In this document: positions 19,728 through 43,806 of the stretch, one piece after another
Numbering within the stretch: position 1 is the first letter of the stretch
How the letters are laid out: every line of letters begins with the position of its first letter
DNA from: Rhodopirellula islandica
Lineage (GTDB): Bacteria > Planctomycetota > Planctomycetia > Pirellulales > Pirellulaceae
Assembly: GCF_001027925.1 (NCBI RefSeq)
Contig: NZ_LECT01000029.1
Coordinates: forward strand, 186,001-250,000
Direction of reading: 5' to 3'
DNA: 64,000 bases
Notes under the pieces: generated by a model
What the model was told of the DNA's origin: nothing
The model's database searches: none
Seen by the model: only the letters and a program-made list of their open reading frames with translations
Made by a program: the position numbers and the translations under genes

Positions 19728-20384
19728 TCAGGCGTTGATGCGAACGTCCACCCAGTCCATGCCGGCTCGTTGAGCCGCTTCGAAACCCAGTGGGCTGTCT
19801 TCAAAGACGAGGCAGCGTTTGGGATCGATGCCCATTCGTTCCGCAGCACACAAGAACACATCAGGTTCCGGTTTGTGCAGTTCCGTGTCTTCACTGCCGA
19901 CCAACACGGGGAACCAATCTGCGACGCCGATGGTTCGCAGTTGATCCGCGACGATGTCTCGCATGCCGCCGCTGGCCACGGACATGGCGATGCGGTGGAG
20001 GTGGCGTTCGGCGATTTCGATGACGTGGGCGAGACGCTCGACTTCGGGGATGCGAGCGATGAAAGCTGCTTCCTTTTCCTCGGTCGCCAAGTCGACGTCG
20101 ATCGTCACCCCTTGTTCCGAGCTCAGCACCTCGATGATCTTTTCGCTGGGCATCCCCCCCATGGCGTAGAACCGTGGTTCAGGAAATTCGATCCCGTGAC
20201 GCGTCATCGTTTCGTGCCACGCCAGGTAGTGCAGCGGCATCGAATTGGTGAGCGTTCCGTCGCAGTCGAAGATCAAGCCTTCGTAGCGACCCGCCAAATC
20301 ATGGGCGATCACGGACTCCAGCGGCAATTGGCCGGAATCATCGGGGCGAAGGAGCGAGGCAGTGTCAGTTTCAGATGGAGGCAT
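19728..20384 (-). CDS. HAD-superfamily phosphatase/phosphomutase (beta-phosphoglucomutase-like)
   Basis: HAD motif I is FDCDGTLTNSMPLHYLAWHE, motif II is the Ser in SVASGG, motif III is the Lys in HKPEPDVFL, and motif IV is FEDSPLGFEAAQRAGM. The helical cap between motifs I and II fits the beta-phosphoglucomutase / sugar-phosphatase subgroup. Probable activity is dephosphorylation or mutase action on a small sugar phosphate; the substrate is not known. Its ATG overlaps the TAA of the halogenase-like gene by one base (TAATG), so translation is likely coupled. About 30 residues precede motif I, a longer N-terminus than usual, and an internal start is possible. Confidence 0.87.
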   Translation of the reverse strand: MPPSETDTASLLRPDDSGQLPLESVIAHDLAGRYEGLIFDCDGTLTNSMPLHYLAWHETMTRHGIEFPEPRFYAMGGMPSEKIIEVLSSEQGVTIDVDLATEEKEAAFIARIPEVERLAHVIEIAERHLHRIAMSVASGGMRDIVADQLRTIGVADWFPVLVGSEDTELHKPEPDVFLCAAERMGIDPKRCLVFEDSPLGFEAAQRAGMDWVDVRINA

Positions 20385-21694
20385 TAAGTCGACATGGGTT
20401 TGGTGTCAGCCATGGAATCCGATTTGGACATGGCGTTGGCCCGGGCCATTTCGATGGAACGATCGAGGGCTGGGAACATTTTGCCTGCATCTTCGTGGAA
20501 GACCCGCCCAATCAGCAAGTCCGTCACATTGCCGCGGTATTCGGGATGTTCTTTCATGAATCGACCGATGCTGAAATCTTTGTTGTAAAAAGCGTGCACG
20601 AGTTCGCGAATCCTTGACGCACCTTCTTTGAAATCCTCGGTCCAGTTTCCAAGTTGCTCGGCGGACAGGTCGTCTTTTTTCAAACCGTCCACGATTGCGT
20701 CACCGGCCCGCACGCCCATTTCCAGTGCGAAATACACTCCGGAAGAGTAGACCGGGTCGATGAAACCCAGTGCGTCACCGATCAGCACCCAGCCGGGGCC
20801 GGCGTGGCGGCGGGTCATGTAGCTGAATTCTTTGGCCGTGGTGATCTTGGCCACGCGAGTGGCATTGGCCAGTCGTGGCTGCAGGCCGGGGCACAGGGCC
20901 AGTTCTTCCTCGAAAACTTGTTCGGGCGTCCCACGGCCCTTGAGCAGGAAGTCGTTGTCACCGACGCATCCGACACTGGTGACTCCCCGGGATTGTGGGA
21001 TGAACCAGAACCATGAGTCTCGCGACTTTGTGTACAGAATGATGGTGGCGCCGTCGTTGTCGCCTTCTCCCCGCACCGCATCGCGGTAATACGTCCAGAT
21101 CGCAGCCTTCTTCAGATCCGGATTGATCTCTCGAAGCCCCAGTTTTCCGGCCATGAACGACTGTTGGCCCGTCGCATCGACGACGACTTGGCAGCGAATC
21201 GTGCGTTCGGTGCCATCGGCGGTTCGGACGACCACGGCACGGGCCACCGGTTGATCGGGGCTTTCGCCGGGTTCGGTGTGGACGTCGACCAATCGGGTCT
21301 GGTCGAGGCAGTCGGCACCCAGTTCGGAGGCTCGGTCAAACAGCATTTTGTCAAATTCGCTGCGTTCGACTTGCCAGGTTGTGCTGCACTCCCGTTCATC
21401 ATGTTCGCGAAAAAAGAAGGGGGCAGATTCTTTGCCCGTGTGAGTGACAAATTGGACGCTTTTCTTCGTCTGCCATCCCGATCGTTTGACTTGATCGATC
21501 AAACCGAGTCGTTCCAGTGGCCAGTAGCACTCTGGCATCAGCGATTCGCCGACGTGGAACCGGGGCACCGGATCTCGTTCGATCAACAGGGTGCTGGCAC
21601 CGGATTCAGCGACAATCGAAGCAGCAGTACAGCCGGCGGGGCCTCCACCAATCACCACGCAATCGTAGGAATCCTTCATGTTTGGCAAACTCAT
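20384..21694 (-). CDS. FAD-dependent oxidoreductase, flavin-dependent halogenase-like
   Basis: The FAD dinucleotide motif VVIGGGPAGCTAASIVAESG lies at the N-terminus, followed by FHVGESLMP, DATGQQSF, SWFWFIPQ and GWVLIGDALGFIDPVYSSG. These match the family shared by flavin-dependent halogenases and geranylgeranyl reductase-type enzymes. SWFWFIP is close to the halogenase GWxWxIP motif but not identical, so halogenation is possible, not proven. The frame extends to 21874; ATGs at 21694 and 21679 are the credible starts because they directly precede the FAD motif. It is divergent from the acyl-AMP ligase/ACP/AOS gene, which suggests it may modify the same lipid product (inference), and is coupled to the HAD gene. 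Confidence 0.85.
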   Translation of the reverse strand: MSLPNMKDSYDCVVIGGGPAGCTAASIVAESGASTLLIERDPVPRFHVGESLMPECYWPLERLGLIDQVKRSGWQTKKSVQFVTHTGKESAPFFFREHDERECSTTWQVERSEFDKMLFDRASELGADCLDQTRLVDVHTEPGESPDQPVARAVVVRTADGTERTIRCQVVVDATGQQSFMAGKLGLREINPDLKKAAIWTYYRDAVRGEGDNDGATIILYTKSRDSWFWFIPQSRGVTSVGCVGDNDFLLKGRGTPEQVFEEELALCPGLQPRLANATRVAKITTAKEFSYMTRRHAGPGWVLIGDALGFIDPVYSSGVYFALEMGVRAGDAIVDGLKKDDLSAEQLGNWTEDFKEGASRIRELVHAFYNKDFSIGRFMKEHPEYRGNVTDLLIGRVFHEDAGKMFPALDRSIEMARANAMSKSDSMADTKPMST

Positions 21695-22011
21695 CTGCAA
21701 AGGGAAAGTTGGATCGGAAAAAGGCGAGCAGGCGGTGTCTGGTGTAGCGGAAAGGTCGCTTAGCAGACAACGTGGTTGTTTTTCGCCAATGTCAGGTGGC
21801 GTTGAACACCTCGAATACGCCATCATAGCGGGGTAGCAACTCGATCTTGAGATGCCGTGCGGACTGACATCCAAACTGAGAAACTCAGTGAATTTGGCCC
21901 CCTCTCATGGATGGCCCGGAGCGTCTGTGTGGGGTCACCCTTGGCCGATCAGCCCCGTTGGTGCATCATTGCGGCAATGACTGATTGCCTCCCCGCACCG
22001 AATGACTGTTC
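21695..22011. other. Divergent intergenic region, halogenase-like / megasynthase
   Basis: The 317 bases between the two divergent genes should contain both promoters. I saw no convincing boxes, repeats or RNA structure. If the halogenase-like protein started at 21874, part of this region would be coding, but that stretch has no family resemblance. Confidence 0.35.
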
Positions 22012-25000
22012 ATGGAGCGTCCAAGAGTGCGGTCAAGAGAGAACGAGATTGTTCTGCGACGGCATCATTGCAACAGGTTGAATTTGGTGGACCTCCAACA
22101 GTATTTCAAAAACGAAACGCCTCCTCGCGACCATTTTGTCTCGGTTTTGCGGCACTGGGTGCAGGTGCGCCCGAATGCGCCCGCCTTCACGTTCACCGAC
22201 GGGGAAGGCTCGGACCAGACGCTGTCCTACGCTGAATTGTGGGAAGAGGTCCGCGGACTGGCTGGGTACCTGCAAGGTCGTTGTGGCATCCGTGCGGGTG
22301 ACCGGGTGTTGCTGCTTTACCCGCCGGGGCTGGATTTCGTCATCGGATTGTTCGCGACCCACGCGGCCGGTGCGATTGCCGTTCCGGCGTATCCGCCGCG
22401 TCGAAACCGCAAGGCTTCTCGGATTCGTTCGATTGTCGTCGACGCTGATGCGCGTTGGGCTCTGTCCACTCGGTCGGTGGTGGATCAGTTGTCGGGCAAC
22501 GAACTGCACGAAGACTTGGTTGGCGTGCAGTTGCTGGGAACCGACGTCCCCAGCAAACGTGACGCAACCCATTGGCGGTGCCCCAAACTTCGCAACGAAG
22601 CGCTGGGTGTGTTGCAATACACATCCGGTTCGACGGGATCGCCCAAGGGGGTGATGCTGACGCAGGCCAATCTGATCGCCAACAGCGAGTTGATTCTGCA
22701 CGGTTTCGAACCGCAATCGACGATCATTGGTGCGTCTTGGTTACCGACTTACCACGACATGGGATTGGTCGGCGGCGTGTTGATGCCGATGTTTGTCGGA
22801 CGCCACAACATTTTGATGAGCCCGATGGCGTTCCTGCAGCGACCGAGTCGCTGGCTGCAAACGATCTCGCGGCATCAGGTCACGATCAGCGGCGGCCCCA
22901 ACTTTGCTTATCAGTTGTGTGTCGACAAAATTCGCGACGAAGAACTCGAAGGCATCGACCTGTCGTCTTGGGAAATCGCCTTCAATGGGGCTGAGCCGGT
23001 TCGTTCCTCGACGCTGGATGCATTCACACAACGTTTTGGAAAATACGGATTCCGGCACAGTTCCCACCTGCCGTGTTACGGCATGGCGGAAACGACGTTG
23101 ATCGTCACTGGTGGTCCGATTGCCCCGCGTCCCATTCTGCAGCAATTTGACGGGCCTGCACTCGATGAAAAGGCGGTTCGTCCCGCCGTGGAGGTGTCCC
23201 CAGCCAAGGATGAGCAACCTGGCACCGACGCGGAGACGGTGATCGGATCGTCGAAACGGGCAACGCGAGAACTGGTTGGTTGCGGCCGAGTCTTGCCCAG
23301 CGAGCGTGTGCTGATTGTGGACCCTGACACGCGGCAAACGCTGCCGCCCGATGCGATCGGCGAGATCTGGGTTCAGAGTCCTTCGGTCGGTCGTGGTTAT
23401 TGGCAGCGTCGCGAGCAATCGACCAAAACTTTTGCCGCCATGACTTCGGAAGGTGAAGGCCCGTTCCTGCGAACGGGCGACCTTGGATTCTTGTACGGCG
23501 GGCAGTTGTATGTGTCCGGCCGCCTGAAAGACATGATCATCGTCCGTGGCGTCAATCGTTATCCACAGGACATCGAAGCGACCGTGGAACACGCCAGCGA
23601 CGTCGTGCAGGCGGGGTCCGTCGCCGCGTTCGCGATGAACGCGGACAGTGACGAAACGGAGACGGGACGCGAAAAGCTGATCATTGTGGCCGAAACGGTT
23701 CGCAAGCGAGACTTGGATTGGGACGACCATTTGCAGTCGATCCGCCGAGCGGTGACCGAAGATCACGATCTACCGCCTGACGCGATTTATTTGGTTCGAA
23801 ACAGTTCGGTGCCCAAAACCAGCAGCGGGAAAATCCAACGTCACGCCTGCTTGCATGCGGTTCGCGACAAAGAATTGAAGGTCATCGCCCAGTGGATTCG
23901 GGGCGAAGAGTCTTCGCTTCAGAACGCCGGTTTGGCTGGCGAAACCATGATGAAGGCCGCTGCCGCATCGGACGCAGGCGGTTTGGATTCGGTCGCTGAT
24001 CCCGTGGTTGCGGAAGCGATTGTGTCGCACGTCCGAGCGATCGCTGGTGAACGGGCAGGATCGATTCATCCCGACACCAACATCGTCCTGGACTTGGGGC
24101 TCGATAGTTTGGAACGACTCGAGATTGCCAGGAACTTGGAACGCACTTTCGGGGGCCGGTTCCCCGAACAGGTGCTGGACGAAATCGAAACGATCGGCCA
24201 AATCGCGACGGCGGTGGAACGTTACTTGCCCGCCGGTGCACTCGGACGCGCCGAGCAGTTTTTGGCGGGGCGAGGCGACACGCAGCGAGATGGTGACGAT
24301 GACCTCGTCAACACAAATGCCAACGGCGAAGCCAGCACGGACGGCGAAGGTCCGCTCGCTCGTGTCATGCAAACGCCTCAGGTCGAACCGGAAGACGACG
24401 TCACGCAGTTTGCTGAGTACCGTCGTTTGAAATCGACGATGCGGCAAATGCAATTGACGGGTGTGCCCAACCCGTACTTCACCGTTCATGACTGCGTGGT
24501 CGGCGACAAAACGATTGTCGATGGCAAAACGTTGATCAGTTTTGCCAGTTACAACTACTTGGGCCTGAGCGGTCATCCCGAGGTTTCCAAAGCCGCCTCG
24601 GATGCGATCGCAAAGTATGGGACCAGCGTCTCAGCCAGTCGTTTGGTCAGCGGTGAGAAACCGATTCACGGCGAACTCGAACGCAAAATTGCGAAATGGG
24701 TCGGGGTCGACAGTTCGATCACGATGGTCGGCGGTCACTCCACCAACGAAACCACGATCGGGCACCTGGTTGGTCCCGGCGATTTGATTCTGCACGATGC
24801 ACTTTCGCACAACAGCATCGTGCAAGGCGCATTGTTGTCGGGTGCCAAACGACGTCCGTTCCCGCACAACGATTACGAAGCGCTCGACAAAATGCTGACC
24901 GCTTTGCGTGGTCAGTACCGTCGAACGCTGATCATCATCGAAGGCGTCTACAGCATGGACGGCGATTTCGCCGATGTGCCGAAGTTCGTCGAGGTGAAAA

Positions 25001-25623
25001 AGCGTCACCGGGCAATGCTGATGGTCGATGAAGCTCACAGCTTCGGAACCATGGGCGAGACCGGTCATGGGATCGCGGAGCACTTCGATTTCGACGCTCG
25101 CGATGTCGACATCTGGATGGGCACACTCAGTAAATCAGCCTCCTCGTGCGGTGGATACATCGCGGGCAGTGAAGCGTTGGTGGAATTGCTGCGTTACACG
25201 GCCCCTGGGTTTGTGTTCAGCGTTGGCATGCCTCCTGGGCAAGTTGCCGCCGCGATTGCTTCCTTGGAAGTGCTGGAACGCGAGCCCCAGCGAGTTCATC
25301 GGCTGCGTCAAAATAGCGAACTGTTCTTGAATCTATGCCGTGAGGCAGGCTTGGACACCGGCGACAGTGGCGGGACCCCGGTGGTTCCTGTGATCACGGG
25401 GAACAGCCTCGTCGCACTGCGATTGAGCAATCGATTGAAGAAGGATGGGATCAACGTTCAGCCGATCTTGTACCCGGCGGTGGATGAGTCCGCGGCACGT
25501 CTGCGGTTCTTCATCACCAGCGAACACAGCGAAGAGCAAATTCGCTTCACGGTCGAACGCACTGCTCACCACTACAACGATCTGAGCGACTCGCCTGCGG
25601 CACCGCTACGCGGCACGGGGTGA
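22012..25623 (+). CDS. Fusion: fatty-acyl-AMP ligase - acyl carrier protein - alpha-oxoamine synthase
   Basis: Residues about 25-620 form an adenylate-forming ligase: YTSGSTGSPKGVMLT starts at 203, GGPNFAYQLC is typical of fatty-acyl-AMP ligases, and YVSGRLKDMIIVRG follows. An acyl carrier domain (about 665-735) carries the phosphopantetheine serine S699 in LGLDSLERLE. Residues about 790-1195 form a PLP enzyme of the 8-amino-7-oxononanoate / serine palmitoyltransferase family, with SYNYLGLSGHPEV, DEAHSFGTMG and the PLP lysine K1041 in GTLSKSASSCGG. The likely reaction is to activate a fatty acid, load it on the carrier, and condense it with an amino acid with loss of CO2 to give an alpha-amino ketone, as in sphingoid bases. 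The amino acid is unknown. The true start may be slightly downstream (GTG at VDLQQY). Confidence 0.93.
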   Translation: MERPRVRSRENEIVLRRHHCNRLNLVDLQQYFKNETPPRDHFVSVLRHWVQVRPNAPAFTFTDGEGSDQTLSYAELWEEVRGLAGYLQGRCGIRAGDRVLLLYPPGLDFVIGLFATHAAGAIAVPAYPPRRNRKASRIRSIVVDADARWALSTRSVVDQLSGNELHEDLVGVQLLGTDVPSKRDATHWRCPKLRNEALGVLQYTSGSTGSPKGVMLTQANLIANSELILHGFEPQSTIIGASWLPTYHDMGLVGGVLMPMFVGRHNILMSPMAFLQRPSRWLQTISRHQVTISGGPNFAYQLCVDKIRDEELEGIDLSSWEIAFNGAEPVRSSTLDAFTQRFGKYGFRHSSHLPCYGMAETTLIVTGGPIAPRPILQQFDGPALDEKAVRPAVEVSPAKDEQPGTDAETVIGSSKRATRELVGCGRVLPSERVLIVDPDTRQTLPPDAIGEIWVQSPSVGRGYWQRREQSTKTFAAMTSEGEGPFLRTGDLGFLYGGQLYVSGRLKDMIIVRGVNRYPQDIEATVEHASDVVQAGSVAAFAMNADSDETETGREKLIIVAETVRKRDLDWDDHLQSIRRAVTEDHDLPPDAIYLVRNSSVPKTSSGKIQRHACLHAVRDKELKVIAQWIRGEESSLQNAGLAGETMMKAAAASDAGGLDSVADPVVAEAIVSHVRAIAGERAGSIHPDTNIVLDLGLDSLERLEIARNLERTFGGRFPEQVLDEIETIGQIATAVERYLPAGALGRAEQFLAGRGDTQRDGDDDLVNTNANGEASTDGEGPLARVMQTPQVEPEDDVTQFAEYRRLKSTMRQMQLTGVPNPYFTVHDCVVGDKTIVDGKTLISFASYNYLGLSGHPEVSKAASDAIAKYGTSVSASRLVSGEKPIHGELERKIAKWVGVDSSITMVGGHSTNETTIGHLVGPGDLILHDALSHNSIVQGALLSGAKRRPFPHNDYEALDKMLTALRGQYRRTLIIIEGVYSMDGDFADVPKFVEVKKRHRAMLMVDEAHSFGTMGETGHGIAEHFDFDARDVDIWMGTLSKSASSCGGYIAGSEALVELLRYTAPGFVFSVGMPPGQVAAAIASLEVLEREPQRVHRLRQNSELFLNLCREAGLDTGDSGGTPVVPVITGNSLVALRLSNRLKKDGINVQPILYPAVDESAARLRFFITSEHSEEQIRFTVERTAHHYNDLSDSPAAPLRGTG

Positions 25624-26933: not shown

Positions 26934-28538
26934 TCAATACACATCGCGGACGTATCGTTTCTCGGACGTCATGGTTTTCAAGTAGGCCTTGCCTTCGTCT
27001 TCTGACATGCCGCCTTCTTGAGTGATGATCTGCAGCAAGGCTCGGTCGACATCGGCGGCCATCCGGGTGGCGTCGCCGCAAACGTAAAAGTGGGCACCAC
27101 GGTTCAACCATGCCCAAAGTTCCGCCGCGTTCTCTCGCATTTTGTCTTGGACATAAACCTTCGTGTCGCCGTCGCGGCTGAATGCGGTGTCCAGTCGTGA
27201 GAGCACGCCCGAGTGCACGTGCTCGGTCAGTTCGGATTCATACAGGAAGTCGTACGCTTCGTGTTGATCACCAAAGAACAACCAGTTGTCACCGGAAGCT
27301 TTGCGAGCGGCCCGTTCTTGGATGAAGGCCACAAAGGGAGCGATCCCGGTTCCGGGGCCAACCATGATCATGGGGGTGGCATCTTTTTCCGGAACGGTGA
27401 AACCACCGTGGTTGGGCTGCACGAAGACTCGCATGCTTTCGCCGCAGTTGACTCGGTCGGCCAACATGGTGCTGGCGACACCTTTTCGCACACGCCCTTC
27501 GCGTTCGTAGACGACCTTGCCAACCGTCAGATGAACTTGATCACCGACCGCCTTCATGCTGCTGGCGATGGAATACAGGCGAGGGTTCAGAGGATCGAGG
27601 CATTCCAGGAATTCCGTCGCGGTGATGGTTGATTCCCCGGCGACCTCCAAGACGTCCAGGACATCAAAACCGTCGGGAACCCCTTCGGCGAGCAAGTGGT
27701 TGAGAGTTGCTTGAGCGTCTGCGTTGGGGGTGCGTCCGACCAGTAGTTCCAGCAGTTCGTCGGTTGGATCTTTCAAGCAGCAATCCTCGTGCAGTGCTTC
27801 CAGCAGAGTTTTCGTGTTGCCTTGTGGCGTCGCCACTTTGACGTGCGAGTCCGTTGCCAAACGATCCACAATTTGCATGCACAAGTCACTGCAGTTGGTT
27901 GGGTAGACTCCCAGGGCGTCTCCGACTTCGTACTTGATTCCTGACCCGACCAAGTCAATTGCGACGTGCCGGGTGTCTTTTGCGGAGCCTTCTTGGTTGA
28001 GTGGTCGGGACTCGATCAAGTTGGCGGAATAAGGATTCTTGCGAGACCATGCGGCGGCTCCGTTGGCGGCGGCACCATTCAGCTCGGAGCCATTCGAACC
28101 GTTGCCATTGCTGGATGGTTGGACGCTGTCACCCGCTTCCGCCAAGAGCTTTTTGATCATCTGTTTCGTTTCTTTGCCGCCAGGACTGCAGAGAGAAACA
28201 TTTTTTTCGTCGCCCGACGCGATCGCTTCGCTGTACGTTTGGCAGAGGTAACCGCAGGAACCGCAATTCAGCTGAGCCATTGCAGCCATCAGCTTTCGGT
28301 CCAGTGGTTTGCCATCGGCGAGTTCCATTCGGTCGACAATGGGCAGTGAGTCATCATGCCAGGGGAAGTCTTCTTCCTCTTCGACATTCGTGTCAGCGGA
28401 GGGCAGTCCGGCAGCCATCGCGGTGGCTGCGTTCCCATCAACGGACTCTGTGATCCCGGTCCAGCCCGCCAAGAAACCGTTTAGCCAGGCTCGTTGTTGT
28501 TCGTTGAAGGGGGCGGTCTCTGGGATGAAGCTGGTCAT
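26934..28538 (-). CDS. Fe-S/FAD reductase, CysJ-like without flavodoxin domain (nitrite reductase partner)
   Basis: The N-terminal part has a cysteine cluster, LNCGSCGYLCQTYSEAI, with more Cys nearby, suitable for an Fe-S centre. After a Ser/Asn/Gly-rich linker comes a sulfite-reductase-flavoprotein-type FAD/NADPH module: EVGDALGVYP, RLYSIASS (FAD), GPGTGIAPFVAFIQER (NADPH), YVCGD, and the terminal YVRDVY typical of CysJ. The FMN flavodoxin domain of CysJ is missing, so electrons may run NADPH to FAD to Fe-S to NirA. The ATG at 28538 has AGGA nine bases upstream; the longer frame begins with TTG. It is the last gene of the nitrate operon. Confidence 0.88.
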   Translation of the reverse strand: MTSFIPETAPFNEQQRAWLNGFLAGWTGITESVDGNAATAMAAGLPSADTNVEEEEDFPWHDDSLPIVDRMELADGKPLDRKLMAAMAQLNCGSCGYLCQTYSEAIASGDEKNVSLCSPGGKETKQMIKKLLAEAGDSVQPSSNGNGSNGSELNGAAANGAAAWSRKNPYSANLIESRPLNQEGSAKDTRHVAIDLVGSGIKYEVGDALGVYPTNCSDLCMQIVDRLATDSHVKVATPQGNTKTLLEALHEDCCLKDPTDELLELLVGRTPNADAQATLNHLLAEGVPDGFDVLDVLEVAGESTITATEFLECLDPLNPRLYSIASSMKAVGDQVHLTVGKVVYEREGRVRKGVASTMLADRVNCGESMRVFVQPNHGGFTVPEKDATPMIMVGPGTGIAPFVAFIQERAARKASGDNWLFFGDQHEAYDFLYESELTEHVHSGVLSRLDTAFSRDGDTKVYVQDKMRENAAELWAWLNRGAHFYVCGDATRMAADVDRALLQIITQEGGMSEDEGKAYLKTMTSEKRYVRDVY

Positions 28539-28638
28539 CGGGATCAATCCTGGGAATGAATCGAAAGGTGGTTGGAAGCTGGATGAGGTCGGTGCCGTGT
28601 TAGCGAAAAACGGTTTTCGCGTGGCGTGAATTCACGAA

Positions 28639-30489
28639 TTAGCAGACGACGGACGATTCGGTGGGCAGTTCCACCAAGCCCTTCAGTTCTTCATCACTCA
28701 GCCGGGTTGCGAATTGATTGAAGGACTCGTTGGCGTCGAGTCGGTGTTGTTGGTAGCTCGACAGAATGCCGGTGACCAAGGCGGGGACATTTGTGAATGG
28801 GATCGACGAATAGATTTCGCGAGCGATGCCTTGGCGTGATCCCCAACCCCCACCGAGGCAGACGTGATAGCCATCGACCATGTCCTCGCCGACTTCGACT
28901 TGGCAGGCGATCAGTCCGATGTCGCCGATGTAGTGCTGAGCACAGCTGTGGTGACAGCCGGTCAAGTGAATGTTGATGGGTTGGTCCAGTGTCAACATGC
29001 TTTCCACGTGTTCGGCGATCTCCATCGCGTTGGCCTTGGTCGGTGCTCCCGCGAATTTGCAGCCCGCGCTACCGGTGCAGGCGACCAATCCGGCGCGAAT
29101 CGAGTTGGCTTCGTAGTCGAGTCCACACTCGCGAATTCCGGCTTGGACGGCTGGTAAATCATCGTCGGCGATGTTGGTCAGGATCAGGTTTTGCCAGACG
29201 GTCAGACGAATGTCGCCGTTGGAATAGCGGAGTGACAAATCCGCGAGAGCACGAGCTTGGTCGGTTGTCATGCGGCCAACGGGAAAGACGACCCCAATGG
29301 AATTCAAACCGGGTTGTTTCTGAGGGAACACACCGACATGAGCACTGCGATCCTCGATGTCTTGGACGGTCAACCGATTCACGTCGACCTTGGTCAACGT
29401 CTGGCCCATTTGTGCCTCGACCTCCGCGATGAATTTCTCAAATCCCATCTCGTCGAGCACGTACTTCAGGCGAGCTTTTTTGCGGTCGGTCCGGTCACCC
29501 GTGCGAATGAAGACTCGAACGATCGCGGCAGCGACGGCAACACATTCACTTTCACGAAGCAACACGCCGGTGTAGCGAGCAAAGTCTTTGTGACCGGTGA
29601 TGCCACCCAGACAAAGCTGGAAATAGACGCCCGCGGGCAAGTCATCCGACGCGTTTTCATCGAGCACGCGAACGGCTTTGAAGCCGATGTCGTTGGTGTC
29701 TTCCAGGGACGCGATTCGTCCACCGCCTTCGAAAGCGATGTTGAATTTTCGAGGCAACCCGTACATCTCACGATGGTTGAGGATGTAGTGGTGCATGCGT
29801 TTGGCGAGCGGCAGAGTCTCGATCAGTTCATCGGCATCCAAGCCGGACATGGCGCTGCTGGTGCAGTTGCGAATGTTGTCGCCGCCGCTGCCCAGCGGCA
29901 CGATGTTCAGTTCACGAGTCCCGAACAGAATGTTCATGGCTTGATCGGCGGGGATCTCCCGCAACTGCACGTTGCCGCGTGTGGTCAGGTCCAGGTACGG
30001 ACCCGCCGATTGGTCCGCCAGATCGGCCAGTCCCCGCAATTGCCAGGCTTGGATTTGACCGCCGGGAAGTCGCAACCGGCACATGAAGCTGTCTTGCGCC
30101 GGGGCGACAAAGAACAGCCCGTGGAACTTTTGCAGGAACACATCGGTGCCCTTGGGGAACTCACCCGCCTCACAGCGAGCTTGCATTTCGTCCCAGAGAT
30201 CCAGTGGGTTTTTCTCGCGTTTGGCTTGTTCCTCTTTCGACAGCTTTTTGCCGGATGCAAGGACCGCCGATTGAGCTTCGAAAGCAAATCGGTCGGGACC
30301 CGAGGGCATTGCCTCGCCATCAACCGTCGTTGGTTTTCCGCCGATCGCCAGTGTCGTGCCTTTTCCGCCGGAGCCTGAGACAACGGGCAGTCCTTGGACG
30401 GCGCGAGCCACATCGGCACCGAAGGTGAAGCCAGCGAGGTATTGCTGTTGTTCGTCCGAAAACGGTTTGGAGTCCTGTTGATCAGTCAT
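28639..30489 (-). CDS. nirA: Assimilatory nitrite reductase, siroheme-Fe4S4 type
   Basis: NirA reduces nitrite to ammonium with six electrons. The siroheme/4Fe-4S cysteine pairs are CTGSAGC (C-x5-C) and GCHHSC (C-x3-C), and siroheme-binding stretches [14 protein letters not shown] and [14 protein letters not shown] are present. At 616 residues it is longer than many bacterial NirA proteins, with extra N-terminal residues. Its start overlaps the end of nasA by eight bases, showing translational coupling. The N-terminal motif [16 protein letters not shown] resembles the N-terminus of the downstream reductase, hinting at a shared docking or assembly signal. It could also have some sulfite reductase activity, but context favours nitrite. 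Confidence 0.93.
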
Positions 30490-32743
30490 GGTCGCTCGTC
30501 AAAACGGGATCGATTCGGACCGCACAATCCTTGTAGCTGGGTTGGCCACTGTGTGGGTCAAAGTGAGAAAGGGTGAGCCGGTTGGTGCACTCGTAATGCA
30601 TCGGCATGAAGGCTTGTCCAGGCTGGACCGAGTGGGTCAAGCACGCGGTCACATCGGCATGGCCGCGTCGAGATCGAACACGAACGAGATCGCCGTGTTC
30701 GACGTCCAGTTCCGCCGCGTCGCGGGGGTGCATCTCGACGTACGGTTGGTTGGGATACAGCGACCGAAGCAGTGGGCTTTGCCGTGTTCGGGTTTGCGTG
30801 TGCCACTGACTGACCGTGCCTCGACCGGTGAGCAACACGACGGGGTAATGGGCGTCGGCCGGCTCAGGCATCGGTGTGATTTCATCGACAATCAGGCGAG
30901 CTCGGTTGTCGTCGTGGAAGAACTGGCCATCGGCAAACAGGCGGCGCTGCTGTTCCGGTTCAAAACCGCCGCTGGCGTGATCGGCTGACCATGGCCACTG
31001 AATGCCGCCGCAACGATCGAGTTGTTCGTATCCCTGGATGCCTGAAATGTCACAGGGTTGATCTCGACTGGCTCGCTGCATGATCTGAAACACCGCTTCC
31101 GGCGAAGACCAGTCGGCGAACATCTCGCCAAGTCCCCAGCGGTGTGCGATCCCTCGAAAGATCTGAAAGTCGGCGAGGGCTTGACCGGGAGCGTGGCGAA
31201 CTTTTTTGAGCAATCCGTAGCGACGTTCACTGTTAATGAACGTGCCTTCTTTTTCTCCCCAACCCGCCGACGGCAAAATCAAATCCGCATGGGAGCAAGT
31301 CTCGGTCGTTTCGTACATGTCTTGGACGACCAGGAAGTCCAGTTTCGCAAACAGTTCGCGAACGTCCTCTTGGTCGATCCAACTGTGCGCTGGATTGGTG
31401 GCGACGACCCACAGGCCTTTGATTTCGCCGTTGCGGATTCCTTCGATGATGCGGTCGTATTTCCAACTGGATGTTGTTGGAATCTGTTCGACGGGGATCT
31501 GGAGTGCTTCGGCGACCTTGTTGCGATCGGCTTCGTCAGAGAAGGAATGGTGTCCGAACAGGTTGGTTGTGTTGCTCCACAATCGCGATCCCATCGCGTT
31601 GCATTGCCCAGTGATGCTGTTGGCACCCGTTCCTGGGCGTCCGATGTTTCCGGTGATCAGAGCGATGTTGATGATCGCTTGGGCGGTCCGCGTCCCTTGG
31701 TAGCTTTGGTTGACCCCCATGGTCCACCAAAGTGAAACGGCGCGGCCACGTCCGATCGCTTCCACCGCATGTGACACGTCTTCCACGGCCAGACCCGCTT
31801 GTTCGCAAACGGTTGCCAGATCGAATTGGGCGACGTGTTGTTGAAGTGCTTCGAACCCCTGGGTGTGGTTTTGGACAAAGTCATGATCGACAAAGTCTCT
31901 CGCGATCAACTCGTTCGTGATCGCGTACAGCAGAGCCAAGTCATTTTTAGGCCGCACTTGCAAGTGCTGAGTGGCGGCAGCAGCCGTTTCGGTCCGACGC
32001 GGGTCAATGACGATGATTTCGGGATTGTTGGGATTGCGAAGCACTCGTTCCCACATGATTGGATGGCCAATGCAGGGGTTGGCTCCGATGAAAACCAAAC
32101 AATCGCTTTGTTCGAAATCGTCGTAGGTGTAAGGCGGGGCATCAAACCCGAAGGACTCTTTGTAAGCCGTGACCGCGGTGGCCATGCACTGACGCGTGTT
32201 CCCATCGCAGTGACGCATGCCCATGCCAAAGCGTGCCAGGGCACCGAGGAAGGCCATTTCTTCGCTGGCAATTTGTCCGGTGGACAAAAAGGCGACGGAT
32301 TCGGTCCCGTGTTCGGCTTGGACCTTTTTCATGCGATCGCAAAAGGTGGTGAACGCATCGTCCCACGGGATCGATGACAGTTTGCCATTTGGGTCACGAA
32401 GCAACGGTTGCGTGGCACGCTCGGGAGAATCCAAGACACGCAGGGCTTCCCAACCTTTGGGGCAAGCCATTCCCAGATTGACCGGGTAGGTTGTTTCGGG
32501 AGTCAGGCCGACGGCCTCCCCGTCTTTCAAATGCAATCGCAACCCGCAGCCGGTGGCGCAGTAGCCACAGGTGGCGGTCGTGGTCGTGTCCGCGGTCATC
32601 GAGTCATGCGTCATCCCCAAGCCGTGATCGCCTGGGCGCAAGATCAACTCGCGAGTCATCGGGCCCGTCCGCCGTTGCAACAGCGTGGGGAGTTGGAGAC
32701 CTTTTGAGTTGCCTCGCGGGAGGTCTTTGGCTGAGATGCTCAT
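30482..32743 (-). CDS. nasA: Assimilatory nitrate reductase catalytic subunit, molybdopterin type
   Basis: The ATG at 32743 gives 753 residues; the longer open frame upstream lies inside the preceding gene. Near residue 36, [12 protein letters not shown] plus a later Cys (MACPKGW) form the 4Fe-4S motif of NasA/NapA-type enzymes. Downstream segments such as [26 protein letters not shown] and [20 protein letters not shown] match molybdopterin-bis-MGD nitrate reductases, and a C-terminal molydopterin-binding domain is present ([20 protein letters not shown]). There is no Tat signal, so it should be cytoplasmic, as in nitrate assimilation. The start overlaps the DmsBC-like gene as ATGA, and the end overlaps nirA. 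Confidence 0.93.
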
Positions 32744-34548
32744 CGGAGGGTCCCCGGCATGCGATCGGTAACAACACTTGAAAAGTAAATCAATCGTTCG
32801 ATGAACTCGCCGGTGACGAGCAGCAACGTGGCGGCCAGTGTGCAGGCCACAACCAATGTCATGGAGCCCGCGAGTGACAAGGCGGCTGAAAGGACCAGCA
32901 GCGTCACACTGGTCCAACCCAGCGCGAGTCGTCCCAGACTCCACTTGGCCAGGTGATGGCGGACCAGTCGTTGGCTCCGTCGATCCCAAGGATCGTCGGT
33001 GTTGCCCGGCTGGCGGCGGAGCAAGATGCTTTGTTCCCAAGCCAGCTTCACGCTCAGCCCCAACGTCGTCAGGCCGAGCAAGAGAGTGACGGAGGTTCGT
33101 TGTTGCGTGGTCGCGGCGATCACCAACGCGCTGGTGGACATGCCTCCGATCGCTGCGGTACCCAGGAACCGGATCATCGTGCGATCAAAACGCCAAAGGA
33201 TGCGTTTCGTGGCGATGTAGATCATGCCGCTGCTCAACAAACCGGCGATGCCAAAGACAATGGCTCCCAGCAACATCGTGCCGGGGACCCAGGCGGGAAT
33301 GGAAACCCAGGTCGGCAGGTATTGAGCGACCGCAGGCAACCACATCGTGACGACGGCCAAGGTCAGGATCCCCACGAATTTGCCCAGCAACACGGCTTCG
33401 CGGCTGAGCCACGATGTTCGGAGTCCCAGGAAGATGCGCCAGGATCGCAGCGGTTGTCCGAGGTGCAGTGGAGCCAAGTTCATCCCCACCATGGAGATCA
33501 CCAAGGCAACTGTGGCTGTCCAGCGAGTCGTCTCCGTTGGCATGGCGGAACCGGCCAACCATCCGATCGCCGCCAGCACGCGTTCGGTCAACAGCATGCC
33601 CACGCCGACTTGAGTGGCAATCAACAGGGCAGCCAGCGGCCAGTGATCTTCAGCGGGGCGATCAATCCCATGGTCTTGGGCGTGGCCCTGCCATCGTTTG
33701 CTTGGGTCTTTGCTGCGGAACACGGTGGTGGGACGTGTGATCGATGAAAGGGGGGCGCCGCTGATCAAGCGATCTTCAGGGTTTGTACCTGGAATCTGTT
33801 GATCAACGACTCGAATCGCGATCGCTTCGTTCGGGCAGGATTGCACGCACGCGGGAGCTTCGCCGGTCGCGAGCCTTTGCTGGCACATGTCACACTTGCG
33901 AACGATGCCCAGACGTTTGCTGTACTTGGGGACTTCGTAGGGACACATCATCGTGCAGTACTTGCACCCAATGCATTGATCGTCGAGGTGTCGAACGATT
34001 CCTGTTTCGGGGTCTTTGTCGTAGGCCTTGACTGGGCAACCGTTGAGGCAACCTGGGTCCTCGCAGTGGTGACAGGCCGTGGTGATGTGTTGCACACCAA
34101 TCGCGGCCGGGATCGTCGCTGTTTCAGTGGCGGAGTCGTCATCGGTTTCACCGATGACCAGCGTGCCAACCCGACGCCAACTTTCGGTTTCGTCCAAACC
34201 GTTCATCGTGTGACAGGCCACCACGCAGGCCTTGCAGCCGCTGCAGGTGTCAAGGTTGACGTCAAAGGCGAGTTGTTGTCCTGGACCCGGTGGGCTGGCG
34301 GGCATCAGCTTGGAATAGTAACGAGCCTGAGCGGGCTGACCCGCCGGTGGGGCCACCATCTGTTCTTCGGCAAGGCCGGATTCATGTGCCGCCGCGAAGT
34401 CCTCCACGGCGGTCAACGTTTGCTGTTCGTTCAGCAGCATGCTGACCAAATCAAACGAGTCGCCTTGTCCGTCCAGGGGCAATCCCGTCGTGGGCACGGC
34501 GCCGACGGGTGGAGCGAAGTTCGATTCGGTGGGGAGAAGACTGGACAT
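32740..34548 (-). CDS. Fused DmsB-DmsC-like ferredoxin and membrane anchor of nitrate reductase
   Basis: After a 100-residue N-terminal extension, residues about 105-265 hold four cysteine clusters of the DmsB type: [37 protein letters not shown] and CDMCQ...CVQSCP. From about 300 to the end there are eight or nine hydrophobic segments like the quinol-oxidising DmsC anchor. One polypeptide thus joins the electron-transfer and membrane subunits. With the ATGA overlap to nasA, it probably passes electrons from menaquinol or ubiquinol to cytoplasmic NasA, instead of the usual ferredoxin or NAD(P)H donor. This donor assignment is inference. The protein ends with a hydrophilic Arg-rich tail. Confidence 0.9.
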
Positions 34549-34553
34549 AAGAA

Positions 34554-35489
34554 TCAGAACATCAAAACGGTGATGGAGCTGAGGTCGGAGCCCTCAAAAA
34601 ATGGGATGGCGAGTCCAGCGGTTGGGCATGGCAACGCGCGATCAGCAGGACGAGTGAGCAGCAACGCTTCCATGTCCTCGAGCAACACAACCCGTTGATG
34701 CTCGGCCACCAATCCGAGGATTCCGGTCATCAATGGAATTCGTGTGGCAGGCGGGAGTCGAAAGGCTTGTTCGACTTCCCCATACGCTTGGCTGGTCAAT
34801 TCACATTCGTTGCCGTCGACGTTCCAAACTTCGATCGCACGAGCCATCGGGGAGCGTTTGGATTGAATCAGGACGGCGGTGGAAAGGTATTGGTCGGCGA
34901 AGACGGGCAGCCCAACTGCCGAGTTGAGCAAATCCGCGGACGCGCCCGCCGCCCGCAGGAAACCCATGTGGTTGGCGAGGTCGTCTTGCGCGAGTGCTCG
35001 GCTCTGTTCCCAAACGACGCCGGGAAGTCCGTTGCCCTTTTCAAAACGCACAAAGGAACTGACGTTTTGGAATCGCTCGAGTTTGCCGTAGTAGCCTTCT
35101 CGCAGTGCGACTTCATCGTATTTACCGACGGGACGCCAGACTTCGAACACGCCGACTGGATCGGGAAGGGACTCCGTCGGCAATTTCGCGAACAAGACAA
35201 CGACGGACTGAATGACGCCTCCGCAATGAACGGGAATCGCCATCGCTGCGGCTGCCTCCGAGGGTAACAACGATGGTTCTTGCACCACCACCGCGTCAGC
35301 CTCTTCAAGGCATCGCTTTGCGATCGGCAACGCATTGGCATCGCAATCGGAAGAAAAGTCGCCCGGGGCAATGACATCGCAGACATGAACGCCTTGCAGA
35401 TAGCACGGATCGGAAACGGCAAGCGGTGGCAATGAGTGACGCAAAGTGATGGTGGCGTTGGATGGTTCTGAGATCGAGATTGAAGTCAT
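34554..35489 (-). CDS. GAF-like protein inside the nitrate operon
   Basis: The 311 residues have no signal or membrane segments. A central segment, KGNGLPGVVWEQSRALAQDD followed by NHMGFLRAAGA, has the layout of GAF ligand-binding domains, and a related pattern appears in the second half (GLPVFADQYLSTAVLIQS). No DNA-binding, kinase or cyclase part is attached. Its place between the transporter genes and the DmsBC-nasA-nirA block suggests a nitrogen- or redox-sensing role, or maturation of the enzyme; this is inference. It ends five bases before the DmsBC-like start. I do not recognise a named family. Confidence 0.7.
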   Translation of the reverse strand: MTSISISEPSNATITLRHSLPPLAVSDPCYLQGVHVCDVIAPGDFSSDCDANALPIAKRCLEEADAVVVQEPSLLPSEAAAAMAIPVHCGGVIQSVVVLFAKLPTESLPDPVGVFEVWRPVGKYDEVALREGYYGKLERFQNVSSFVRFEKGNGLPGVVWEQSRALAQDDLANHMGFLRAAGASADLLNSAVGLPVFADQYLSTAVLIQSKRSPMARAIEVWNVDGNECELTSQAYGEVEQAFRLPPATRIPLMTGILGLVAEHQRVVLLEDMEALLLTRPADRALPCPTAGLAIPFFEGSDLSSITVLMF

Positions 35490-35501
35490 GTTGGCAACCC
35501 T

Positions 35502-36350
35502 TTAGGTGGCATCGGCGGTTGCGAGTTCTGCTGCTTGGGCCGTCGCACGTTTCTCCGCGTCCGCTTTGAGCTTCTTGTGGTCCTGGTCTTCCAGGAACTG
35601 AATCATCTTGCCGCGAAAGTCGTAGTACTCGGGATGATCGAGCACATCGGCGCGAACCCGAGGGCGGTCGAACGGCAAGCTGAAGATCGCACCAACTTTG
35701 GCCCGAGGGCCGTTGGTCATCATCACCACGCGATCGCTCATGAAGAGCGCTTCGTCGACATCGTGGGTGACCATCACCGTGGTGACTTTGTCGCGGATCA
35801 AGATCTCGAGAAGGATCTCTTGGAGTTCCATCCGCGTGAGCGAATCCAGCATGCCAAACGGCTCATCGAGCAGCAGCATTTTGGGACGCAGTGCAAACGC
35901 TCTGGCAATCCCAACACGTTGCTGCATGCCTTGGCTGAGGTCCTTGGCTCGCTTGTGAAGGTTGCTGCCCAGCCCGACCAGGTTGAGATAGTACGATGCC
36001 AAGTCACGACGGTCCTTTTTGCTGGCTTGCAGATAGACCTGGTTCACCCCGAGCATCACGTTTTCGAGAGCTGTCATCCAGGGCATCAAACATGGCGACT
36101 GGAACACGACGCCGCGATCGGGACCCGGGCCGTCGATTTCGCGTCCGTCAATGGCAACGCCACCGCTGGTGATGGGGTTGAGTCCGGCGACCATGGTGAG
36201 CACGGTGCTCTTGCCACAACCAGAGTGGCCAAGCAGCGAGACGTACTCTCCTTTTTCAAGGTTGAGATCAAATTCCTCGACAATCACGACGGGCCCATTG
36301 TGGGTGTCGTAAGTTTTGCCGAGACGGAACATTTCAACGTAGCCACGCAT
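35502..36350 (-). CDS. nrtD: Nitrate ABC transporter ATP-binding protein (NrtD-like)
   Basis: A 282-residue ABC ATPase with Walker [10 protein letters not shown], signature LSQGMQQR, Walker [13 protein letters not shown] and switch histidine THDVDEA. It belongs with the nitrate/sulfonate/taurine group (NrtCD/SsuB-like), and the surrounding genes point to nitrate. It is probably the peripheral inner-membrane ATPase that drives import with its partner ATPase and NrtB. The C-terminal tail is rich in Ala and Lys. It is separated by 12 bases from the GAF-like gene and by 108 bases from the other ATPase gene. Which of the two ATPases corresponds to NrtC or NrtD is not decided by sequence. Confidence 0.85.
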
Positions 36351-36458
36351 GTTCGGTGCACTGTGTTGGAAGGTGGAAGGTGTTGGGGATTCACGCGTCT
36401 GAAAGACGGGCTGTCAAAACGCGAGGCAGGTTTGCCATCGCGTTCGAAATGGGGACGC

Positions 36459-37406
36459 CTATTGAGGACCTGTGTTGAAGACCGCCCGCGAGGGACGCGA
36501 CAAATCAGAGGGCTCAATGTCAGGCAAGTGGAAGGCTTGGGTCGGGTTGGCCGCCAACTCATCGCGACGGGCCTTTTGACGTACTGCGACCAAGTAGTTC
36601 GTGACGGCGTTCCGCAATCCTTTGAACTCATCGTTGTCGTTGAGTTCGGTTTTGTTCCGAGGTCGATCGATGCCCACGGTGAACACGGGACCAAGCGAAG
36701 CGTTCGGGCCAGGGTTCAACGGCACGATTCGGTCGGCGACCATGATCGCTTCGTCCACATCGTTGGTGATCATCACGCACGTCTGTTTTTCCTCGCCCCA
36801 GATCTTCAGGATCTCGTCACCGAGTTGACCGCGTGTCAGTGCGTCCAATGCGGAGAGCGGTTCGTCGAGCAGCAGAACTTTCGGTTTCAATGCCAAGGTC
36901 CTTGCCAGACTGGTTCGTTGGCGCATCCCGCCGGACAACTCGTGAGGCCTTCGATGCGCCGCGTGGCTGAGTCCCACCATGTCGATGAATTTTTCGACGT
37001 GTTCGCGTCGTTGTTCTCGCGACCATCCTTTGAAAACGGCGTTGACCGACAAGGCGATGTTCCCTCGGACAGTCAGCCATGGCAGCAGCGAATAATTCTG
37101 GAACACCATGCCGCGGTCGGGGGATGGGCCCTTGATCGGCTCGTCATCCATCGTGATCGTGCCTTGGTCAGGAGCGATCAATCCGGCCAACAACTGCGTG
37201 AACGTCGTTTTGCCACTGCCGCTGAAGCCCACCACTGCCAAAAACTCGCCTTCGCGAATGTTGAGGTTGATGTTCTGCAGGACTTCGTTTCGTGTCACAC
37301 CACTGCCGTACCCCTTGCAAACGCCACGCATTTGCACGATTGGCTTGGGAGCGGACGAGACGACTCGTCGGTTGGACTTGGGCGTCGTTTCGAGAACTGT
37401 GCTCAT
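36459..37406 (-). CDS. nrtC: Nitrate ABC transporter ATP-binding protein (NrtC-like)
   Basis: A second ABC ATPase: Walker A GFSGSGKTT, signature LSGGMRQR, Walker B VLLLDEPLSALD; the usual switch His is Asn here (ITNDVDEA), while the other ATPase has THD. It may therefore be the weaker of two unequal ATPase sites, a common arrangement in heterodimeric transporters. The ATG at 37406 (MSTVLETTPK) is preferred over the TTG at 37457, which begins the longer frame. The C-terminus lacks the NrtA-like regulatory domain seen in cyanobacterial NrtC. The nrtB stop at 37454 is 47 bases upstream of the ATG. Confidence 0.84.
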   Translation of the reverse strand: MSTVLETTPKSNRRVVSSAPKPIVQMRGVCKGYGSGVTRNEVLQNINLNIREGEFLAVVGFSGSGKTTFTQLLAGLIAPDQGTITMDDEPIKGPSPDRGMVFQNYSLLPWLTVRGNIALSVNAVFKGWSREQRREHVEKFIDMVGLSHAAHRRPHELSGGMRQRTSLARTLALKPKVLLLDEPLSALDALTRGQLGDEILKIWGEEKQTCVMITNDVDEAIMVADRIVPLNPGPNASLGPVFTVGIDRPRNKTELNDNDEFKGLRNAVTNYLVAVRQKARRDELAANPTQAFHLPDIEPSDLSRPSRAVFNTGPQ

Positions 37407-37453
37407 GGTTGCACCGCTGGATGAGGAAGGAAGAGAAGCCGTGACATCCACGA

Positions 37454-38569
37454 TCAAACGGGGGAAGGGTTGCCGAAGCTGACCAGGTTGCGGAAGAAGA
37501 TCATGATGCGATCCAAGACCAATCCGATCATTCCGATCACGATCACACTGAAGGCGATTCGTGCGTAGGTCAGCTCACTGCCGTTTTGGAATTCATCCCA
37601 GACGAACTTTCCGAGGCCAGGGTTTTGAGCGAGCATGTCGGCGGCAATCAAAACCATCCAACCCACCCCCAAGCTGATTCGCATGCCAGCGAACATCAGT
37701 GGCAAACTGGCGGGCAAGATGATCTTGGTCAGACGTTGCCACCATGAAAGACGAAGCACGTCAGCGACATTGATGAAATCCTTGTCGACACTGGCAACGC
37801 CAAGCGTGGTGTTCACCAACGTGGGCCACAGCGAGCACAGGCAGACGGTTGACGCTGAGATCAGAAACGCTTTGTTGAAAAACGTTTCGCCGCTGGAGTA
37901 ACCAGCGTAGTACCACATGATGACGATGAACGCCAAAGGCAACCAAGCCAGTGGGCTGACCGGTTTGAAGATTTGAATGAACGGGGTCACCGCCGCATTG
38001 AACCAAGGACTCATCCCGCAAAGAACGCCGACCGGCACGGCAACGATCGTGGCCAAGAAAAAACCGAAGAAGACGGTTTTGACACTGGTCCAGATCTGGT
38101 CGATGAAAGTCGGGGCGCTAGATGGGGTGAAGTTGGCTGCGGCGAGGGCGCGTTTCTTCAACGCGGTTGATTTGTCTTCGAGCAATGTTTGCGTCTCACC
38201 CGATGCGGTGGCTGCTGCAGCGGTGTATGCGTTGGCTTCGGCAACGAGCTGAACGGCTTCGGTCAACTTCTCTTGCTTGGCAGTTTTGTCAGCGGCACGT
38301 TGGTCGTAGTGCATCGCGATCAGTTGTTTGCCCGCCGACCAAGTCGCTTGGGGGCTGGGAAGTTTGGCGCTGTCGGTCACCACCGTGGAGGCAGCCCCCG
38401 CCCACAACATCAAGAACACGCAAACTGCAGCGATGGGTAGCAGAATGAACTTTGCGATCCCGATGCACTGTTCGCGTTTGTCCTCACCTGCTGCCAAGCG
38501 AACAAACGGTTCGAGAATTGGAAGTCCGGCCACATCGCAAAAACGGAGAAGATTGCCACGCCAGTTCAT
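37454..38569 (-). CDS. nrtB: Nitrate ABC transporter permease with large loop insert
   Basis: The C-terminal two thirds is a binding-protein-dependent permease with five or six hydrophobic segments and an EAA-like loop ([21 protein letters not shown]). The usual NrtB is about 280 residues; here 371 are found. The extra part follows the first membrane segment: roughly 100 residues, Ala/Lys/Gln-rich and probably coiled coil ([20 protein letters not shown]). If the first segment leads outward, this loop is periplasmic and may touch the lipoprotein NrtA. The ATG at 38569 is used; the frame continues upstream to a TTG at 38608. It forms the inner-membrane channel of the nitrate transporter. Confidence 0.85.
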
Positions 38570-38650
38570 CAGGGGATACGTCCAGAAAAGGTGGGAGATA
38601 GAAGACAAGAAGGAACAGGATCCAGGGGCAAACGACCCCGGTGGTCGCGG

Positions 38651-40135
<1,485 letters not shown>

Positions 40136-40347
40136 CGATCCGGTGGCGCGTTGGGGGCGGGGAGCCTGTTGTTCCTGAGTTTGTCCGCTTCGAGTGGACG
40201 AGGACGAATCCGATGAAATGAACGGGGTGCTTTCCGATTCAAGGCAAAAGCCGGAAGGGCAAAAAGGCATGAGGAAAACTATCCGTCGAGAAGAGAGCTG
40301 ATAACGGTGTGCAATAAAGTGGCGTCGGTGATGCAGGTTTTACGGTT

Positions 40348-43803: not shown

Positions 43804-43806
43804 TGC

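Follow-up and report, generated by a model that had tools for sequence, protein, structure and literature searches.

Domain organisation of the fusion protein

A stretch of 64,000 nucleotides from Rhodopirellula islandica (contig NZ_LECT01000029.1, positions 186,001 to 250,000; hereafter the window) carries a gene for a single polypeptide in which a fatty acyl-AMP ligase (FAAL), an acyl carrier domain and an α-oxoamine synthase (AOS) follow one another, and which probably starts ceramide synthesis in the Pirellulales. The gene and its predicted domains are located in the window as follows.

22012..25623, forward strand: FAAL-carrier-AOS fusion gene, a single frame of 1203 amino acids (Pfam, NCBIfam, alignment)
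22150..23892, forward strand: FAAL domain, residues about 47-627 (adenylation part 47-464, C-terminal part 507-627; A10 Lys607)
24016..24216, forward strand: acyl carrier domain, residues 669-735 (phosphopantetheine Ser699, codon 24106-24108)
24412..25620, forward strand: AOS domain, residues about 801-1203 (pyridoxal phosphate (PLP) Lys1041, codon 25132-25134; His933, Asp1006, His1009 and Arg1165)

The Pfam matches of the protein were, in order, AMP-binding (47-464, 4e-68), the DIP2-like AMP C-terminal domain (507-627), PP-binding (669-735, 1e-12) and Aminotran_1_2 (840-1182, 3e-46). The second domain is a predicted carrier with its putative phosphopantetheine serine, Ser699, in the DSL motif of DLGLDSLERLE. 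Lys1041 lies in the context GTLSKSASS, and the third domain has all the residues predicted for an AOS, namely the PLP lysine, the aspartate, two histidines and the carboxylate-binding arginine. For conservation, 68 full-length frames from the window and the fetched loci were aligned and 10 repeats removed; 55 distinct Pirellulales proteins were counted. Ser699, Lys1041, His933, His1009 and Arg1165 were invariant in all 55, and the PLP aspartate, Asp1006, was Asp in 53 and Asn in 2. The FAAL core was equally well preserved, with the eight A3 positions and the A10 lysine in 55 of 55 and the A5 tyrosine in 54; the A5 motif falls in an alignment gap in the three aligned fusions of f28, a distant family of the phylum. 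An earlier note on this DNA had read the protein as an activating domain, a carrier with S699 and a PLP synthase with K1041, and the Pfam and solved-structure matches as well as the conservation of both residues bore this out.

Comparison with solved structures placed the first domain closer to FAALs than to acyl-CoA ligases, and it is, as judged by these scores, a predicted FAAL. It matched the FAAL of a polyketide synthase (PKS), 7r7e-g, with 490 bits and 3kxw, which we take to be a Legionella FAAL, with 393 bits; mycobacterial FAALs, some of them deposited under CoA-ligase names, gave 219-297 bits, and the acyl-CoA ligases 8r2q and 3g7s only 88 and 86 bits. The identity of the named entries as FAALs is in part our assumption. 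The best solved relatives of the AOS domain were a 2-amino-3-ketobutyrate CoA ligase/8-amino-7-oxononanoate synthase (KBL/AONS), presumably of Thermus (234 bits), a serine palmitoyltransferase (SPT), presumably of Sphingobacterium (229 bits), and plant LCB2a (212 bits).

Distribution of the fusion

The fusion query matched all 149 sampled genomes of the host family, though not always as a whole fusion. A whole fusion, defined as a frame of at least 1050 amino acids matching from the FAAL on, with the AOS judged by frame length where unlisted, was present in at least 116 of the 149, one of them a genome of 2.9 Mb. Among the matches listed, six shorter frames in the family were taken for contig cuts. 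In G147, the FAAL and the carrier-AOS part are encoded by two overlapping adjacent frames of 597 and 599 amino acids (L241 4505-7970), the result of either a natural fission or a frameshift. In at least three family genomes (G033, G041, G110), the frame that carries the FAAL match is 1035-1080 amino acids long; that of G033 (L240 5011-8115) is a FAAL-AOS fusion of 1035 amino acids without a carrier domain and with a divergent AOS (32%).

In a scan of 246 genomes of the phylum, frames compatible with the whole architecture were found in at least four members of the order (G000, G018, G043, G314) and in at least four genomes of f28 (G174, G199, G237, G270), and a further AOS match lay in a 1214-residue frame of G380. 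The search in other planctomycetes that the earlier note had proposed thus found the whole fusion both across the host family and in f28. The fusion is a real, widely conserved enzyme gene.

Thirty-nine further fusion loci (36 from Pirellulales and 3 from f28), each at most 20 kb long, were also set against the window. The commonest neighbour adjoined the fusion in 9 of the 39 loci, and no gene family did so in more. There is no conserved cluster around the fusion, which behaves as a lone gene.

The R. islandica genome (G000) comprises 7.43 Mb in 55 contigs and has PSCyt and HXXSHH genes, which mark it as planctomycete. It also holds a second FAAL-carrier protein (L002 1369-3786, G000:C25) of 805 amino acids, 39% identical to the fusion and without an AOS.

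Co-occurrence with CerS

A plasmid locus of Rahnella (L176) has separate genes for an N-acetyltransferase, a fatty acyl-AMP ligase, an epimerase, an acyl carrier protein and an AOS, the same gene kinds as cerS, aasR, cerR, acpR and spt of Caulobacter (PMC11324152). Since the genes match in kind, the proteobacterial pathway can be read as the three activities of the fusion provided in trans.

The Rahnella N-acetyltransferase was used as CerS query in 36 genomes. It gave a near full-length match of 201-257 bits in all 20 fusion-bearing Pirellulales, R. islandica included, and also matched each of the 13 planctomycetes that have an SPT-like gene, adjoining that gene by coordinates in 9 of them; the three genomes with neither fusion nor SPT-like gene had none. 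A profile built from ten such proteins was then run over 199 genomes of the phylum and gave strong matches in 74. These comprised 62 of 63 genomes with an SPT-like gene, 3 of 3 Pirellulales and 9 of 133 others, counts that are not corrected for kinship. The limits (at least 430 bits for SPT-like, 230 bits for CerS) were set after gaps in the score lists had been seen. In five of the nine others (G158, G162, G181, G183, G250), an AOS match lay beside CerS by coordinates. Genes were called SPT-like on the strength of their bits, of ten tree-placed members that group with the solved Sphingobacterium SPT, and of their adjacency to CerS.

The R. islandica match lies elsewhere in the genome and is unlinked to the fusion.

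G000:C7:250004-251203 (L193 9505-10704): candidate CerS, a tandem GCN5-related N-acetyltransferase (GNAT), by query and profile match

This protein was 49-93% identical to its counterparts in 19 other Pirellulales and had no NCBIfam match. Its structural model (pLDDT 85.6) matched tandem GNAT N-acyltransferases, with a top E value of 2e-13 and a TM score of 0.58, and we infer that it acts in the CerS role.

In the 20 fetched CerS loci, CerR-like genes adjoined CerS in two (G006, G053); by coordinates, another lay near the second CerS copy of G097. A ketosynthase-like gene of 419-472 amino acids, judged by eye, stood directly downstream of CerS on the same strand in 8 of the 20 (L195-L200, L211, L212).

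Relationships of the AOS domain

Four trees of AOS domains were compared. The first, of 58 rows, was chosen by hand from 132 domains together with the window and three solved-structure stretches. For the 48-row tree, L053, L157 and ten other rows were dropped and Rahnella and Roseomonas Spt were added; for the 40-row tree, nine more rows were dropped and yeast LCB2 was added; the 33-row tree held chosen rows and two added 5-aminolevulinate synthases (ALAS). The planctomycete SPT-like proteins, the Sphingobacterium SPT and, from the 48-row tree on, the Rahnella and Roseomonas Spt made up one clade, and KBL and BioF formed others. The AOS of the fusion grouped with RkpG-like and PKS-linked synthases, with support values of 100/97, 99/96, 100/97 and 100/98 in the trees of 58, 48, 40 and 33 rows. 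Monophyly of the Pirellulales fusions was weakly supported (22/9 with 58 rows, 92/63 with 48, not recovered with 40).

In the 33-row tree, the fusion/RkpG AOS, eukaryotic LCB2 and bacterial SPT formed one side against BioF, KBL and ALAS (95/95), and with ALAS thus included eukaryotic LCB2 was sister to the fusion/RkpG clade (99/98). A grouping of LCB2 with bacterial SPT was rejected when yeast LCB2 was included (p 0.0055 and 0.0115, the latter the p-AU of the 33-row tree). In the same tree, the fusion/RkpG clade joined to SPT without LCB2 was also rejected (p-AU 0.0056), a value that reflects the position of LCB2, and a grouping of LCB2 with ALAS was not rejected (p 0.14), because of which the link between the fusion and the eukaryotic enzyme stays tentative. 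The trees used two eukaryotic sequences only, both long-branched; as the lone eukaryote, AtLCB2a had a branch of 2.5-2.6. Tentatively, the fusion AOS may be regarded as the bacterial lineage nearest to eukaryotic LCB2.

The residues of the domain were compared as well. Where SPT, KBL and BioF have Asn, 52 of the 55 fusions have Tyr and 3 have Phe; a Cys follows the PLP-lysine loop in 52, and Val stands in 43 (Ala in 6) at a position where SPT have Ala. RkpG-type AOS of the rkp/wcb capsule loci, members of the same clade, share the signature of Tyr847, Cys1046, mostly Val1071, and ARLRFF. Eukaryotic LCB2/SPTLC2 also has Tyr at the Asn position (Arabidopsis, yeast) and the GSCGGY motif (Arabidopsis), as in the fusion; it works in a membrane complex and uses acyl-CoA.

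Two AOS matches in R. islandica are strong, that of the fusion and that of L003. The latter falls inside the BioF group on a long branch, carries the PPTVP motif and scored 397 bits against the BioF model, below the cut-off of 426. The genome was found to lack any SPT-like gene that belongs to the bacterial SPT clade. Since CerS is present and the only strong AOS matches are the fusion and the BioF-group protein, R. islandica appears to have what is likely the second enzyme on the way to ceramide but no SPT of the bacterial clade.

Proposed function

Taken together, the co-occurrence with CerS and the AOS trees indicate ceramide synthesis, and they lend support to the sphingoid-like α-amino ketone that the earlier note had suggested as product. 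We consider it probable that the fusion is a self-contained sphingoid-base starter enzyme, feeding the unlinked CerS toward dihydroceramide. By analogy, the best reading is that it would unite in cis the work that proteobacteria divide in trans among AasR, AcpR and Spt, supplying a 3-keto sphingoid base for CerS.

As its family suggests, the FAAL would convert a free fatty acid and ATP to acyl-AMP and then load the acyl group onto Ser699 of the holo-carrier in the same chain. The AOS, judging from its family and its conserved residues, would form the external aldimine of a small amino acid on Lys1041-PLP and carry out a decarboxylative Claisen condensation with the acyl thioester, with loss of CO2 and release of the 3-keto sphingoid base; these steps follow the mechanism of SulA and Spt (PMC9304779). 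A carrier-fed AOS fits this scheme because SulA and the Spt of α-, β- and γ-proteobacteria prefer acyl-acyl carrier protein (PMC11324152, PMC9304779). The amino acid would most likely be serine, a preference based solely on the presence of CerS; with alanine or glycine, bases of the 1-deoxy type would result. The tandem-GNAT CerS would N-acylate the base, and a reductase would complete dihydroceramide.

Several observations weigh against this role. In all four trees, the bacterial SPT clade excluded the fusion AOS (100/100 with 58 rows, 100/98 with 48, 98/96 with 40 and 98/97 with 33), and the domain scored below every curated SPT cut-off (313 of 640 bits for NF047600 (CFB), 281 of 500 for NF047599 and 208 of 670 for NF047603). 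The SPT-like genes that served as yardstick themselves reached 430-589 bits, and none of the 199 genomes exceeded the curated 640. The Rahnella N-acetyltransferase is itself taken for CerS from the genes of its locus. None of the four f28 fusion genomes had a CerS match, no fusion match lay inside the 20 fetched CerS loci, and no convincing CerR was found in R. islandica, where the best match gave 70 bits over residues 2-201 of 304. A FAAL-sized frame stood alone in at least 8 of the 149 family genomes (G009, G024, G039, G060, G073, G089, G104, G122), and the fetched stretches of G009, G024, G073, G089 and G104 held no carrier or AOS. Finally, among the titles and abstract starts listed by searches of the open-licence PMC literature, none reported sphingolipids in a cultured Pirellulales strain. 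From its place in the trees, the fusion is not an Spt by descent, but it may do the work of one.

Alternative explanations

The fusion could instead make its α-amino ketone as a specialised natural product or signal, with CerS serving another lipid. AOS relatives with 53-58% identity are indeed found inside a type I PKS of Planktothrix and a 1607-residue protein of Streptomyces, and in f28 the fusion is present in genomes that gave no CerS match. A gene that stands alone, with no tailoring genes conserved around it, and that is whole in most genomes of a family, the 2.9-Mb genome included, is however unlike a secondary-metabolite gene, and the CerS of R. islandica would be left without another candidate feeder. 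We regard this explanation as unlikely.

Another possibility is that the fusion provides a surface polysaccharide with its lipid anchor, in the manner of the Sinorhizobium system whose proteins we take to be RkpA, RkpG and RkpH, with FAAL and carrier replacing the PKS. The nearest AOS relatives in plasmid records include a gene of S. meliloti pSymB, located near capsule genes between a 7.5-kb multidomain gene annotated as short-chain dehydrogenase/reductase (SDR) and an SDR gene (background on the rkp system: PMC3908369), and those in Pseudomonas, Paraburkholderia and Shinella adjoin type I PKS and capsule or lipoteichoic acid synthase-type genes. Against this stand the neighbourhood of the fusion, where no gene family recurs in over 9 of the 39 loci, and the CerS, which would be left unexplained. 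An RkpH-like reductase was sought in R. islandica and rejected, the matches being 22 generic SDRs of at most 75 bits. An anchor function of this kind seems improbable.

The third alternative, a carrier-bearing analogue of BioWF in which pimelate, once activated and bound to the carrier, would condense with alanine to give the biotin precursor 7-keto-8-aminopelargonic acid, was set aside as very improbable: BioF was the top-scoring AOS model for the fusion domain and natural BioW-BioF fusions exist (PMC9544090), but the 353 bits lie under the cut-off of 426, the motif is YPAVDES and not PPTVP, the clade is a separate one, the FAAL resembles those of lipid and polyketide pathways, and the biotin use that the earlier note had named as its refuting case is unlikely because the genome has in L003 a separate AOS that groups with BioF, itself under the cut-off and on a long branch.

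Neighbouring genes

Two genes on the reverse strand precede the fusion in the window.

20384..21874, reverse strand: flavoprotein resembling halogenases and geranylgeranyl reductases (Trp_halogenase, 1e-20)
19728..20384, reverse strand: haloacid dehalogenase-type (HAD) phosphatase, overlapping the end of the flavoprotein gene

The flavoprotein scored below the NCBIfam cut-offs for CmlS (177 bits, cut-off 900) and GG-red-SF (138 bits, cut-off 159). Because most of its relatives align only from about residue 53-66, the TTG start is likely too far upstream, and a predicted start near 21694 or 21679 is likelier. A lysine of the protein aligns with a lysine in halogenase chains, but also in 3nix, which is uncharacterised, and where flavin-dependent halogenases have a WxWxIP-like motif its sequence reads SWFWFIP; in those enzymes the lysine and the motif have catalytic roles.

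The flavoprotein had been proposed as a partner that halogenates or reduces the product of the fusion. Together with the HAD gene it adjoined the fusion in only 1 of the 39 other loci (L070, of the same genus), and the two were rejected as pathway partners, their association with the fusion not being conserved across loci. Orthologues of the flavoprotein (58-91% identity) were present in 21 of 29 other genomes searched and, among the fetched fusion loci, only in L070. The HAD gene accompanied it in the window, in three loci of the same genus and in L070, and was absent from the remaining loci of the comparison; around the flavoprotein, no gene family recurred in more than four of the loci compared. 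In G028, an orthologue of 63% identity is located one gene from CerS (L203 6854-8125 and 9522-10649). As this was seen in 1 of 20 CerS loci, it is a single weak hint and not a conserved association.

Further along, the window holds a nitrate assimilation island (26934-40270, reverse strand) with a NirA family reductase (920 bits), a NasA-like molybdopterin reductase (501 bits, under the cut-off), an Fe-S/DmsC-type protein, a sulfite-reductase-type flavoprotein, an NMT1-like binding protein and a BPD permease. A metallophosphoesterase, a DUF3419 protein and a UbiE-like methyltransferase follow one another at 42907-45860 on the forward strand. The row, with the DUF3419 protein presumably of the BtaA type, resembles a PlcP-BtaA-BtaB set, which would substitute betaine lipid for phospholipid under phosphate limitation. 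In other genomes, two genes for metallophosphoesterases and one for a YidC-like protein come after the lone FAAL of G024 and share its strand (L237 2254-8254), and frames of similar length lie downstream of the FAAL in G009, G073 and G104.

Relation to known systems and implications

A close counterpart is the set of AasR, AcpR and Spt, which together with CerR and CerS is found in proteobacteria such as Caulobacter. The same activities of acyl-acyl carrier protein synthetase/FAAL, dedicated carrier and AOS are combined there, and a CerS match is likewise present in the genomes with the fusion; the fusion differs in being one chain, in being unlinked to CerS and in having an AOS of another clade than Spt. 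RkpG-type AOS are encoded in annotated records by a separate gene, without FAAL or carrier, beside a PKS-type gene. Such a context of PKS, SDR and capsule genes was not found beside the fusion in the 39 loci, and its neighbours in the window are of other kinds. BioWF of Corynebacterium amycolatum also joins an acid-activating domain to an AOS in one chain, but it proceeds through a CoA thioester, has no carrier domain and makes a biotin precursor (PMC9544090).

The domain architecture itself was tabulated in 2013, in a paper of which we believe Milano to be the first author, and one of the organisms concerned, Blastopirellula marina, presumably belongs to the same order as R. islandica. That table lists A-CP-PLP2 proteins of B. 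marina (A3ZWL3) and Microscilla marina (A1ZVW4) with product unknown (PMC3870968, Table 2). They agree with the fusion in domain order and AOS assignment, and the available text of that paper gives no family-wide distribution or link to ceramides. Among the titles and abstract starts listed by searches of the open-licence PMC literature, none assigned the fusion to sphingolipids. The architecture is already known, its product marked there with a question mark; what is new is the ceramide role proposed from the co-occurrence with CerS. Of the compact and little-described pathway that had been expected here, the one-protein fusion stands; the compact pathway does not, since the gene is a lone one, its likely partner is encoded elsewhere and the architecture had been tabulated.

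Sphingolipids were long thought to be rare in bacteria, and recent surveys seek their producers by Spt. A Black Sea study reported 138 metagenome-assembled genomes of Planctomycetota with Spt-like proteins and judged that homologues falling outside its clade B probably do not serve sphingolipids (PMC11334938). A wider reading of our results, possible yet doubtful as a whole, is that Pirellulales start ceramides by a third, non-orthologous route, with activation, carriage and condensation united in one protein whose AOS is of the bacterial lineage nearest to eukaryotic SPT; the eukaryotic enzyme would then not derive from the known Spt lineage, and surveys that equate a place outside the Spt clade with a lack of sphingolipids could miss most of the family.

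If the fusion is the working SPT of Pirellulales, it would offer a one-protein sphingoid-base synthase open to expression and engineering, and it would turn the question of which bacterial lineage stands nearest to the eukaryotic enzyme into a testable one. A widespread order of planctomycetes would then probably make ceramides and would so far have been judged by the wrong marker.

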